Shown here in pieces: positions 45,770 through 50,363 of a DNA stretch of 64,000 nucleotides. This stretch comes from Bacteroidota bacterium (lineage in GTDB: Bacteria > Bacteroidota > Bacteroidia > Bacteroidales > Prolixibacteraceae), in assembly GCA_024278975.1 (NCBI GenBank), contig JAJRSD010000031.1, forward strand, positions 1 through 64,000, written 5' to 3'. The number at the start of each line of letters is the position of its first letter. Within the stretch, counting starts at the first letter, position 1. The translations under genes and the position numbers were made by a program. The notes under the pieces were generated by a model. It saw only the letters and a program-made list of their open reading frames with translations. It was not told the DNA's origin and did not search any database.

Positions 45770-45984
45770 TTAAATATTAACCCCGTAAAGTGGATTATAA
45801 ACTGAATAGTCCTTTAAATAAATAATCCCCTCTTCTTCAACTCCACAAGCAACTACAGATGTAACTTTTTGTTTAAACAGAGGAGCAATTTTACTGAAAT
45901 TTAGTTTTTTGGGATTTGGACGCTCACTACTTTTTGCTTCAACAAGAATAACTTTACCTTCTTTCTCGATAATAAAATCAACTC
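45770..45984 (-). pseudogene. 3' remnant of a DUF4143-type ATPase, paralogous to 47792..48946
   Basis: Minus strand reads ...DFIIEKEGKVILVEAKSSERPNPKKLNFSKIAPLFKQKVTSVVACGVEEEGIIYLKDYSVYNPLYGVNI*, nearly identical to the C-terminus of the gene at 47792; no 5' part. Confidence 0.92.
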
Positions 45985-45987
45985 AAT

Positions 45988-46001
45988 TGCAAATTATCCT
46001 A
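45988..46001. repeat. Single copy of the attgcaaattatcc repeat
   Basis: Identical to the three copies at 48997-49054. Confidence 0.9.
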
Positions 46002-46060
46002 ATTAGAGTTATTGAATTAGGCGCATAATAAATATTTGCAAAATGCTATTACTGATGTTG

Positions 46061-46146
46061 AACCCTTATAAGGGTTCCTTATTTATTCGCATCTCATTTC
46101 CGTATGTTGCACATACGGCTATTATTGTTTCACCCTTTTAGGGTGA
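46061..46146. repeat. Three-hairpin palindromic intergenic element
   Basis: aacccttataagggtt (46061-46076, perfect palindrome); ccgtatgt-tgc-acatacgg (46100-46118); tcaccct-ttt-agggtga (46130-46146). Confidence 0.88.
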
Positions 46147-46154
46147 GAATATGT

Positions 46155-46245
46155 AAGAATGCAATCCCGGATTTGGGTGCAAACTCAAATCCGTAGGTGG
46201 GTTGTTAACTAAATGCCGGCAATCTTTTAGACGTGACCGAAGTAA
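46155..46245 (-). pseudogene. Decayed 3' fragment of a paralog of 49104..50363
   Basis: Minus strand reads ...KDCRHLVNNPPTDLSLHPNPG..., compared with EDYRHLVGDPPTDLSLHPNSPG in 49104..50363. Confidence 0.82.
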
Positions 46246-46273
46246 AGCAAAGGTCTATAAATATAAAATCAGC

Positions 46274-46384
46274 ACTTTTCTACACTATATAATAGATAAG
46301 TTTGACACTTTTTTATACTTGTTTGATAAAAAATTAACTTTTCCACACTATTTTTTTTAATAAAACTAACACTTTTTTACACTT
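46274..46384 (+). repeat. Four imperfect 14-bp direct repeats upstream of the ATPase at 46418
   Basis: acttttctacacta (46274), acttttttatactt (46307), acttttccacacta (46337), acttttttacactt (46371); start-to-start spacing 33, 30 and 34 bp. Confidence 0.9.
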
Positions 46385-46417
46385 AATTTATATATTTGTC
46401 TATAAAAAATTAATGAA

Positions 46418-47722
46418 TTGTACAGGAATATATACATAGAGCTACTAAAATGGAAGAAAAGTGAAGTTCGGAAACCATTGCTATTGCAGGGGGCAAGACA
46501 GGTGGGTAAAACATATATTATTAAACAATTCGGAAGAAAAGAATATTCGAATCTTGCATATTTAAACTTTGAGCAAACTCCTGAACTATCGCAATTTTTT
46601 GAGGGAAATCTAATTCCTGAAAAAATTCTTGAAAATATTGGATTTTACTTAGGTGCAAAAATTACTAAAAACACCCTGGTGTTTTTAGATGAGATACAGG
46701 TAGCACCAAAAGCCATTACCAGTTTAAAATATTTTCAGGAACAGGCTCCGGAATACCATGTAATTGCTGCAGGCTCGCTACTTGGTGTTGGTGTCGGAAA
46801 AGAAAGTAGTTTTCCGGTAGGTAAGGTTAATTTTTTAAGAATGCACCCAATGTCTTTTTCAGAATACTTAATTGCAGTAAACGAAAAGTTCACTTTGGAA
46901 AAACTATTAGAGAATGATTTAGACAGTAAAATTCCTGAACCAATACATAATAAACTTACTGACCATTTTAAGAAATATCTTTTTATTGGAGGAATGCCCG
47001 AAGCAGTGAGCAGTTACATAAAAAACAGGGATATAATAACTGTTCGTAAAATTCAAAATGATATTTTAAAAGCATACCAACGGGATTTTTCGAAATACAC
47101 GACAAAAGCTCAGTCGATTAAAACTTCCGAAATATGGCATTCTCTACCGCAACAATTATCTAAGGAAAATAAAAAATTCAAATATTCCGATGTAAGGAAG
47201 AAAGCAAGAGCAGCACATTACGAGCTTACAATAGAATGGCTAAAAAATGCCGGGCTGGTAAATATTGCATATAATATAAGCACACCCAAACTACCATTAT
47301 CAGGCTATGCTGATGAGACTAAATTTAAACTTTATCTCCTCGATACAGGAATATTGGGTGCAATGCTAAATATTAGTTCTAAAATTATTACAACACCCAA
47401 CAGATTATTTGTAGAATATAATGGGGCTTTTGTTGAGAATTTTGTTGCAATGGAAATGGTAGCAGAGGGAATTGAAAAGTTATTTTATTGGACATCGGGA
47501 AATAAAGCAGAGGTGGATTTCATTATACAAAAAGATGACACTGTTTATCCTGTAGAAGTAAAAAGCGGAATGAGCCGAAACAAGAAAAGCATACAGAGTT
47601 ATATAACGAAATATGCACCAGATTTGGCAATTAGAGTTTCGCCCCGCAATTTTACAAAAGATAATAATTTTATTAATATCCCTTTGTATGCTGTATTTTT
47701 ATTGAAAAGCAGAGGTTTCTAA
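46418..47722 (+). CDS. AAA-type ATPase with DUF4143 C-terminal domain
   Basis: LLQGARQVGKTYIIKQFG Walker A, NTLVFLDEIQ Walker B, KAEVDFIIQKDDTVYPVEVKSG nuclease-fold motif; apparent TTG start. Confidence 0.92.
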   Translation: MYRNIYIELLKWKKSEVRKPLLLQGARQVGKTYIIKQFGRKEYSNLAYLNFEQTPELSQFFEGNLIPEKILENIGFYLGAKITKNTLVFLDEIQVAPKAITSLKYFQEQAPEYHVIAAGSLLGVGVGKESSFPVGKVNFLRMHPMSFSEYLIAVNEKFTLEKLLENDLDSKIPEPIHNKLTDHFKKYLFIGGMPEAVSSYIKNRDIITVRKIQNDILKAYQRDFSKYTTKAQSIKTSEIWHSLPQQLSKENKKFKYSDVRKKARAAHYELTIEWLKNAGLVNIAYNISTPKLPLSGYADETKFKLYLLDTGILGAMLNISSKIITTPNRLFVEYNGAFVENFVAMEMVAEGIEKLFYWTSGNKAEVDFIIQKDDTVYPVEVKSGMSRNKKSIQSYITKYAPDLAIRVSPRNFTKDNNFINIPLYAVFLLKSRGF

Positions 47723-47791
47723 TTAAAATATTATGTCTTCCTTTTTTCTTCATAGCTGCCGATTACGGTACATTTTTAATCCCTCACAAAC

Positions 47792-48946
47792 CTAAAGGCT
47801 AAATCCAAACAACGGATTATAAACTGAATAATCTTTTAGCGAAATAATCCCCTCTTCTTCAACTCCACAAGCAACTACCGACGTAACTTCTTGTTTAAAC
47901 AGAGGAGCAATTTTACTGAAATTTAGTTTTTTGGGATTTGGACGCTCACTACTTTTTGCTTCAACAAGAATAACCTTACCTTCTTTCTCGATAATAAAAT
48001 CAATTTCAACTCCATTCTTATCTCTAATATAAAACAGGTTCTTTCCGGCAATTAACCCATCTTTTAAATATTCAGTAAAAACAAAATTCTCCCAAATATT
48101 ACCAAGATGCAGTGAGTTTTCTAAAGACTCAAGCGAATTGATATTAAGTAAAGCTGCAACCAATCCATTGTCGCAAAAATATAGTTTTGGTGCTTTAATT
48201 ATACGTTTACCAAGATTATTATAATAAGGCGGCAACAGAATAATTAACCCGGAAGTTTCCAGAGCACTCACCCATGCTTTTACTGTATTTACTGCAACTC
48301 CAACTTCTTTCGATATTTCTGAATAGTTCATTAATTGTCCAACCCTAAAAGCAAGTAACGACAAAAAACGCCTGAAATCTCTCAAGTTGGTTACTTTTAG
48401 AATATTGCGCAAATCTCGTTCAAGATAAGTTTGAATATAATCTTCGAAAAAATCGGTTGAATCTAAATTCTCTGCCCAAATTTCAGGAAACCCGCCTCGC
48501 CATAAAAGGTCTCGCCGGTTTATTAATAAATCAGTATTATTAAGTTCTGTAGCACTGAGTGTTCCAAGGTTTAATATTCTTATCCTTCCTGCCAACGACT
48601 CGCTTATTTGTTGCATTAACATAAATTGTTGGCTGCCGGTTAAAATCCATTTTCCCTTAATATTCCTATTTTCATCTACCCTGATTTTTAATTCGCGAAA
48701 TAACGAAGGTGCATATTGAATTTCATCAATAATAACCTGAGATTTGAATCGGTCTAAAAATTTCGTGGGATTTGTTTCCGCCTCTTCAGCAAGTATTATC
48801 TTGTCTAATGTAATATATTTTGTTTTTTTGAAGAGCTTTTGCAACAAAGAACTTTTACCAACTTGACGAACTCCTGTGAGAAGTACAACCGGTCGTGTTT
48901 TTATCGCTTCTTCTATTCTATCTGTATTTTTCCTGTCAATCCACAT
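47792..48946 (-). CDS. AAA-type ATPase with DUF4143 C-terminal domain, second type
   Basis: VVLLTGVRQVGKSSLLQKLF, QVIIDEIQYAP, GVEIDFIIEKEGKVILVEAKSS. Confidence 0.93.
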   Translation of the reverse strand: MWIDRKNTDRIEEAIKTRPVVLLTGVRQVGKSSLLQKLFKKTKYITLDKIILAEEAETNPTKFLDRFKSQVIIDEIQYAPSLFRELKIRVDENRNIKGKWILTGSQQFMLMQQISESLAGRIRILNLGTLSATELNNTDLLINRRDLLWRGGFPEIWAENLDSTDFFEDYIQTYLERDLRNILKVTNLRDFRRFLSLLAFRVGQLMNYSEISKEVGVAVNTVKAWVSALETSGLIILLPPYYNNLGKRIIKAPKLYFCDNGLVAALLNINSLESLENSLHLGNIWENFVFTEYLKDGLIAGKNLFYIRDKNGVEIDFIIEKEGKVILVEAKSSERPNPKKLNFSKIAPLFKQEVTSVVACGVEEEGIISLKDYSVYNPLFGFSL

Positions 48947-48996
48947 TATTCTTTAGATAATTTTTATTGAAATAAAAGTATAACAAAATTATTACA

Positions 48997-49054
48997 ATTG
49001 CAAATTATCCTTATATCGATTGCAAATTATCCTTATATCGATTGCAAATTATCC
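48997..49054 (-). repeat. Three direct repeats at exact 22-bp period upstream of the ATPase at 47792..48946
   Basis: attgcaaattatcc at 48997, 49019 and 49041, separated by identical ttatatcg. Confidence 0.95.
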
Positions 49055-49103
49055 TAAATATAAAATATTGTAAACTACACTTATTGATTAGATCTTTAAC
49101 AAA

Positions 49104-50363
49104 TTATGTTTTCCTCTTTTTCTTTTTAGCAGCCGGAAACAGAACATTGTTTAGGATTAACCGATAACCCGGCGAGTTGGGATGCAAACTCAAATCTGTT
49201 GGAGGGTCGCCAACGAGATGTCTGTAATCTTCCGGATCATGACCACCGTAAAAAGTCCAAAAACCTTTTCCTTTTTCACCATGAATATAACGTGCTTCAT
49301 TGGCAGGCTTATTTTCTCCTAAAATTAAAACATTTGGTTTTATTACCTCTTTTCTGTACGATGTTGTTTGACCCATAAAACCTTTAATAAGATTTTTATG
49401 ATTCTGGCATAGCATTGTTGGAATCGGATCCCATTTTGCAGAAAAATCGAAGAGAGTAAAATAATCGTTTTCGCGGGCTACACGCCGGGTTGTAGTAGCG
49501 TCTATATCAGAGAATTCATATTCATACGGACTCTCAACCAATTTAAAATTTTCGAATGCAAAAGTATTATTAAAGTCCAGCTTTTCCTGAGCATTTTTAT
49601 CGGCCGGGTCACCGTCAAACATAGTCTCGCAAATATCAATACCGATTGCGGCCAGCGAAATATCGTAAGTATCGGTGGCTGCACACATTGCAAATAAAAA
49701 TCCTCCCCGCTGAACATACTTTTCTATTTCGCGGGTAACAAACGACTTCATTTCCGAAACCTTCATAAACCCCAGGTTTTTAGCAAGTTCCTGATTAATT
49801 TTCACCTCTTGCTGGTACCACGGTGCATGTTGGTACGCCCGCCAAAACTTCCCGTACTGACCCGTAAAATCTTCATGATGAAGATGCAACCAATCGTAAT
49901 CTTTAAGTTTACCATTAAGAATTTCTTCGTCGTAAATAATATCATAATTAATTTCGGCATAAGTTAAAACCAATGTTACTGCATCGTCCCAGGGCTGTTT
50001 GTTTGGTGGCGAATAGACTGCAATTTTTGGTGCTTTATTCATTGCAACAGCATCCATATTTACATCGGGTTCGGCAATTTCGGTTAAAATAGCCGATGCC
50101 TGTGCATCAGTTATCGTTTCAAAACTCACACCACGAATCACACATTCATTTTCAATTTCGGGGTAATATTGCATCATAAAACTTCCGCCACGGTAGTTAA
50201 GCAGCCATTTTACTTCTACATCTTTTTCCAGTGTCCAAAAAGTAATTCCATACGATTTTAGATGATCTTTTTGAGAATCGTCCATTGGAATTAAAAGATG
50301 AATACTTTTAGCCTGAAAGGATAAAAACAGTAGTGCTAATATTATATAACTTTTGTAGTTCAT
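49104..50363 (-). CDS. Conserved exported Bacteroidota protein, possibly the family often labelled asparagine synthetase B
   Basis: Signal peptide MNYKSYIILALLFLSFQAKS; KIAVYSPPNKQPWDDAVTLVLTYAEI, DWLHLHHEDFTGQYGKF, DPPTDLSLHPNSPGYRLILNNVLFPAAKKKK. Confidence 0.65.
   Translation of the reverse strand: MNYKSYIILALLFLSFQAKSIHLLIPMDDSQKDHLKSYGITFWTLEKDVEVKWLLNYRGGSFMMQYYPEIENECVIRGVSFETITDAQASAILTEIAEPDVNMDAVAMNKAPKIAVYSPPNKQPWDDAVTLVLTYAEINYDIIYDEEILNGKLKDYDWLHLHHEDFTGQYGKFWRAYQHAPWYQQEVKINQELAKNLGFMKVSEMKSFVTREIEKYVQRGGFLFAMCAATDTYDISLAAIGIDICETMFDGDPADKNAQEKLDFNNTFAFENFKLVESPYEYEFSDIDATTTRRVARENDYFTLFDFSAKWDPIPTMLCQNHKNLIKGFMGQTTSYRKEVIKPNVLILGENKPANEARYIHGEKGKGFWTFYGGHDPEDYRHLVGDPPTDLSLHPNSPGYRLILNNVLFPAAKKKKRKT

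Follow-up and report, generated by a model that had tools for sequence, protein, structure and literature searches.

Phased direct-repeat arrays upstream of AAA_14-DUF4143 ATPase genes as probable operators of their own ATPases

Genes for AAA_14-DUF4143 ATPases were often observed to be preceded by direct-repeat arrays of fixed, clade-inherited spacing, the motif of which tracks the protein and the copies of which are in register with the promoter; array and gene share the boundaries of a single cassette, and the four motifs searched for are rare in the genome. The ATPase behind each array probably uses it as its cognate operator and would thereby autoregulate. Binding and repression are inferred here, as neither binding nor expression data are available.

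Arrays, promoter boxes and proteins of the two window loci

The window, i.e. the whole stretch of 64,000 nucleotides of Bacteroidota DNA that was analysed, contains two neighbouring ATPase genes on opposite strands (Table 1). As the preliminary description had reported, the four copies upstream of the plus-strand ATPase are spaced by 33, 30 and 34 bp and the three copies upstream of the minus-strand ATPase follow an exact 22-bp period; both arrays were recovered at the positions at which they had been placed. The score of the plus array was reached by none of 2000 dinucleotide-preserving shuffles, and the same result (0/2000) was obtained for the minus array.

Table 1. Positions of the arrays, promoter boxes, ATPase genes and duplicate remnants in the window
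Feature	Position	Strand	Remark
Decayed minus-module duplicate: ATPase 3' end (45790-45982, 95% identical) and repeat copy (45986-45999)	45790..45999	-	
Decayed duplicate, 3' end of the neighbouring 419-aa gene (49104-50363)	46169..46228	-	78% over 58 bp
Array, four copies ACTTTTYTACACTW (46274-46287, 46307-46320, 46337-46350, 46371-46384)	46274..46384	+	Upstream of plus ATPase
TATATTTG, matches Bacteroidota -7 promoter consensus TAnnTTTG	46391..46398	+	Consensus from general knowledge
AAA_14-DUF4143 ATPase/PD-(D/E)XK protein, 434 aa, long (33-bp) class, TTG start	46418..47722	+	
AAA_14-DUF4143 ATPase/PD-(D/E)XK protein, 384 aa, 22-bp class	47792..48946	-	
TATACTTT, likely -7 box of minus ATPase	48975..48982	-	Conserved in G020
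Array, three identical GGATAATTTGCAAT (48997-49010, 49019-49032, 49041-49054), 22-bp period	48997..49054	-	

Genome-wide site searches were made for four motifs (GGATAATTTGCAAT, TTGACTTTGTTACAA, AACTTGCCTAATTT and ACTTTTNTACACT). In the 4.65-Mb source genome, GGATAATTTGCAAT occurs exactly four times, namely in the three copies of the minus array and once in a decayed duplicate (45986), while exact TTGACTTTGTTACAA and AACTTGCCTAATTT are confined to their own arrays. The plus motif ACTTTTNTACACT has two matches in its own array and one stray exact match elsewhere. A spread of the repeats over the genome, which would have refuted the preliminary description, was therefore not found for these motifs.

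The closest repeat of the minus array is centred about 22 bp upstream of TATACTTT and fits the general promoter register described below. For the plus ATPase the register is met only roughly, with the closest copy 13 bp before TATATTTG, and the irregular spacing of this array (33/30/34) was counted against its reading as an operator. The promoter box proposed for the plus gene is present, but the last repeat of the plus array does not lie squarely on the -33 element as had been suggested; it covers approximately -20 to -7 from the box start, i.e. the spacer just downstream.

The decayed duplicate, in which the 3' end of the ATPase is joined directly to the fourth GGATAATTTGCAAT copy, had been overlooked previously. 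The region 45790-46250 is a partial duplication of 47800-49250 that includes the 3' end of the 419-aa gene; an internal deletion running from the coding region to the array has removed most of the ATPase. The interval from the decayed copy to the plus array contains a cluster of three short palindromes (AACCCTTATAAGGGTT, CCGTATGTTGCACATACGG, CACCCTTTTAGGGTG) at 46060-46150; this cluster is not a genome-wide repeat and has a single weak partial match elsewhere. A DUF4143 pseudogene with six in-frame stops is located on the window's own contig (G000 C36 130015-130425).

Both window ATPases are full-length and match Pfam AAA_14 (PF13173) and DUF4143 (PF13635) above the curated cut-offs. Homologs of the plus ATPase start at the residue that corresponds to its TTG start. 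Over their full length, both proteins also match the PADLOC phage-defence candidate PDC-S01, the best models being those of the long subfamily for the plus ATPase and shorter ones for the minus ATPase. Walker A/B and PD-(D/E)XK residues are kept in the minus ATPase (G25, R27, G30, K31; D74, E75; D316, E329-x-K331) as well as in the plus ATPase (G25, G30, K31; D91, E92; D367, E380-x-K382). In alignments of 40 and 39 relatives, Walker A/B, the nuclease D and E-x-K and a helix Glu were invariant or nearly so.

AlphaFold models of the two proteins had pLDDT values of 86.5 and 91.5. The nearest solved folds are the archaeal AAA+ proteins SSO1545 (2fna) and PAB2304 (2qen), with TM scores of 0.45-0.54 at 13-20% identity, and a weaker likeness to RuvB and Orc1/Cdc6 was seen. 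The middle domain of the minus model consists of helices 188-200, 208-215 and 219-232 followed by strands, an order that may be that of a winged helix, although this is a reading of predicted secondary structure without a test. A sequence search of the PDB gave 2qen (E 0.002) as the only, weak match, and NCBIfam and PHROGs added nothing useful.

Occurrence, spacing and motif of the arrays across the family

The source genome contains 47 DUF4143 matches. For 157 AAA_14-DUF4143 ATPases of the source genome and related genomes, the 250 bp before the start were screened for direct repeats, with at least 12 of 14 identical bases as the repeat threshold for lag counts. Arrays at exactly 22, 23, 32 or 33 bp were present at 90 of these 157 ATPases, compared with 1.8 expected from shuffles, and at 20 of 36 in the source genome alone. 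Among 45 window genes taken as neighbour control, the only one with such an array was the minus ATPase itself. Lags of 32 bp (38 cases) and 33 bp (41 cases) compare with a shuffle mean of 0.37 per lag, and upstream of the intact ATPases of the source genome repeats at exactly 32 or 33 bp are found time and again, each gene having its own repeat sequence. The pattern of an array upstream of each ATPase, which had been noted for two genes, thus extends to most DUF4143 ATPases of the genome and its relatives; 67 of the 157 (approximately 43%) had no array at the threshold used.

The spacings are not restricted to this lineage. In 79 ATPases of 15 genomes reached via named loci, lags of 22, 23, 32 and 33 bp were counted 6, 2, 6 and 6 times against approximately 0.1 each, and other phyla are thus included; Marinimicrobia, Victivallales, Gemmatimonadetes and Aminicenantes are among the groups that share them. 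No clear array was seen in the archaeal members, represented by 12 Methanomicrobiales genes. Dyadobacter and Maribellus are among the named isolates in which 22-bp arrays of the TATGTAATTTCAAA type occur. A contig scan of one subfamily only yielded 22-bp arrays in 7 of 77 cases. Relatives of the minus ATPase were also encountered in 373 plasmid records (H1-H12) and six unannotated gut phage records (H13-H18), all below 60% identity. At one locus (L101 in G059), a 32-bp array, AACATTTGGTGGATATCGGCA, is common to two divergent ATPase genes, both of which it may serve.

Spacing is inherited within ATPase clades. Most arrays of the long ATPases (median 439 aa) are of the 33-bp class and those of the short ones are of the 32-bp class, whereas 22-bp arrays belong to the clade of the minus gene and 23-bp arrays to a GxRRxGKS clade. 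On a FastTree tree of 112 ATPases, for which the program flagged long branches, the spacing classes required 20 changes as opposed to 53.0 with shuffled labels, and none of 200 shuffles was as low. All spacings approximate whole turns of B-DNA, 2.1 to 3.1 turns by arithmetic at 10.5 bp. Palindromic sites are frequent in the short class, where 51% exceeded the 95% null, but not in the long class, where 5% did. The 23-bp class (GCATTACTAATGAG type) was seen upstream of L033, L198 and L206, GxRRxGKS ATPases of a subfamily separate from both window genes.

The repeat motif, in turn, follows the protein. In a set of 76 arrays from the 31-33-bp classes, a common motif was present in each of the 21 pairs with at least 70% protein identity, while below 30% identity approximately 4% of pairs shared one. 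This increase of sharing with protein identity bears out the suggestion that the motif co-varies with the ATPase subfamily and differs between paralogs. Examples of motifs kept between orthologs are TTGACTTTGTTACAA and AACTTGCCTAATTT, each in three genomes. In ortholog pairs between genomes (at least 60% identity), repeat cores matched at a mean of 11.75 of 14 positions and 56% matched at 12 or more, compared with a mean of 9.56 of 14 and 7% for spacer and flank windows; the cores are thus more conserved than their surroundings, and motif sharing is not mere DNA relatedness. Orthologs without upstream repeats would have spoken against the proposal, but the syntenic G020 ortholog of the minus ATPase (87% identical) keeps three copies at 22-bp spacing in the drifted forms AGATAATTTACAAT, AGATATTATGCAAT and AGATAATTTGCAAT. 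The plus ATPase is not at the syntenic place in G020.

A pooled scan of local protein divergence against motif divergence favoured the N-terminal half. Within classes, no segment, the winged-helix region included, tracked the motif significantly beyond overall identity (best family-wise p 0.117). In a check for incompatibility, paralogs within a genome avoided shared motifs no more than genes of equal identity from different genomes, which lends exclusion no support.

The sites lie almost exclusively upstream of the genes. Core density was 10.15/kb in the upstream 250 bp, 0.02/kb in genes and 0.08/kb downstream, and no cores were found from 250 to 1000 bp upstream. TAnnTTTG is the -7 promoter consensus of Bacteroidota; a box of this type was present near the start in 55 of the 76 arrays compared with 6.7 expected, with copies centred at approximately -52, -20 and +14 bp relative to it. 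Sites over or around a gene's own promoter are the classic layout of autorepressors, and the register with the own promoter that an operator should show was observed.

Autoregulation and alternative explanations

We propose that the ATPase, composed of an AAA+ domain, a winged-helix-like middle domain and a PD-(D/E)XK nuclease-like C-terminus, would bind its own repeats with one protomer or dimer per site, on a single face of the DNA and two or three helical turns apart. Bound in this way, it would cover its own promoter and limit its own expression. The geometry of the protein subfamily may set the spacing, and drift of the motif with the protein would give a single genome dozens of modules, each with an address of its own, with array and gene inherited, lost and placed as one cassette. 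That the ATPase itself binds its array is likely in our view, albeit inferred without binding data. Repression upon binding and a modulation of binding by the ATP or nuclease state are likewise inferences. Among the interpretations offered in the preliminary description, autoregulation is the best supported. Speaking against it, besides the irregular plus array, are the 67 of 157 ATPases without an array at the threshold used, the lack of a clear array in archaeal members and the absence of a protein segment that significantly tracks the motif beyond overall identity.

A rather unlikely alternative is that the ATPase-bound array serves the nuclease mainly as a place of nucleation or as a tag of self-DNA in defence or genome surveillance, with secondary effects on transcription. 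The AAA+ relatives DnaA and Orc1 assemble on phased sites, and the (near-)invariance of the nuclease motif (D, E-x-K, helix Glu) points in the same direction. In addition, PDC-S01, the PADLOC defence candidate, was reported to rank fourth by frequency among the systems of prokaryotes, experimental validation being pending for most such candidates, this one among them (PMC12988326). However, the copies stay in register with the promoter box, a constraint that would be superfluous for a pure nucleation site, and there are no phage-related data.

The extent of homology between ATPase copies bears on a further explanation, a selfish mobile cassette with the repeats as its recognition end. Between relocated copies, homology extends from the 5' end of the array to just past the stop codon. 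In one single-contig genome, the segment common to two copies 2.46 Mb apart (L083/L104) runs from -92 to +1309, the stop being at 1296, and the same limits were found for L026/L108, L024/L181, L025/L189 and L038/L217, while the ortholog pairs L145/L151 and L027/L192 are syntenic beyond the cassette. The L038 unit (G000 C80 27662-29189) is cleanly absent from G026, the flanks of which are 83-85% identical, with junctions approximately 10 bp ahead of the first repeat and 19 bp beyond the stop; from this comparison, a gain in one lineage cannot be told apart from a loss in the other. Together with the 47 matches in one genome and the relatives on plasmids, these boundaries in different contexts speak for a selfish element. 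On the other hand, the repeats are at one end only, no target duplication or terminal repeats were seen, the empty site of G026 is taken up by a different sequence of 116 bp that contains a hairpin, and horizontal transfer through host recombination could yield similar boundaries. We therefore regard this explanation as improbable. The earlier proposal of a selfish unit holds insofar as array and gene behave as one presence/absence cassette, but no mobility mechanism could be shown. A transposon or IS element was rejected because of the motif being upstream only and the lack of a target duplication at the single empty site examined. The idea of a partition-like unit, raised in the same context, found no support, since the module is chromosomal and has no partner gene; a par locus was rejected for the same composition, the homologous unit being the array plus one gene without an adaptor gene. 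Both the tagging of self-DNA for the nuclease and the selfish cassette are compatible with autoregulation and remain open.

As the homology spans array to stop only, no adjacent regulator travels with the unit. This also argues against another host DNA-binding protein as occupant of the arrays, which is very improbable even though binding by the ATPase has not been demonstrated, given that dozens of regulators per genome would be needed, each tracking one ATPase orthologue and its clade spacing. Chance or drifting tandem repeats of intergenic DNA in an AT-rich genome can practically be dismissed, being already refuted by the shuffle and neighbour-gene controls, the exact spacings in other phyla and the core conservation, with periods of 22, 23 and 32 bp that are not codon multiples. 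Coding repeats were rejected on the same arithmetic, and a CRISPR-like array was rejected because there are at most five copies with spacers that are often alike.

Relation to known systems and significance

The window proteins are full-length AAA_14-DUF4143/PDC-S01 members with intact Walker and PD-(D/E)XK residues, whereas SSO1545 (2fna) and PAB2304 (2qen) are distant fold relatives and, by the tests made, not DUF4143 members. With autorepressors and toxin-antitoxin operators the arrays have in common cis sites that overlap the own promoter, lie on one helical face and are paralog-specific in sequence. They differ in that, in place of a dedicated repressor, an AAA+ ATPase that has a nuclease-like domain is presumed to bind, and in that dozens of modules per genome have clade-fixed spacings of 22/23, 32 or 33 bp. 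Phased direct repeats beside the gene are also known from iteron-autoregulated rep genes. The likeness to plasmid Rep-iteron systems and DnaA/Orc1-Cdc6 initiators comprises this arrangement and the AAA+ plus winged-helix fold type; in contrast to these, the DUF4143 modules are chromosomal and numerous in each genome, and a replication gene or origin feature did not come up in the analysis.

In the open-access literature, we found no description of upstream arrays, own binding sites or spacing classes of AAA_14-DUF4143 ATPases, and among 5.39 million open papers the word DUF4143 appears in a single one, on a different subject; subscription papers and preprints were outside the scope of this search. 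It is conceivable, although unlikely, that nuclease cassettes of a selfish or defensive nature, forming a very large class, use the arrays for self-recognition. Each ATPase would then assemble on its own phased array, be harmless as long as it is docked and act on DNA upon loss, replication or competitive removal of the array, and separate immunity groups would be defined by array specificity.

DUF4143/PDC-S01 proteins, the function of which is untested, are reported to rank with the most abundant suspected defence genes of prokaryotes (PMC12988326, PMC13356809), and PDC-S01 has been described as the commonest individual locus of rumen genomes (PMC13356809). From the arrays, a cognate DNA sequence and an oligomer geometry of two or three turns per unit can be predicted for each protein, so that its DNA binding, autoregulation and nuclease control could be tested together. 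Furthermore, the many paralogs with different motifs constitute a natural set for studying the evolution of protein DNA specificity.
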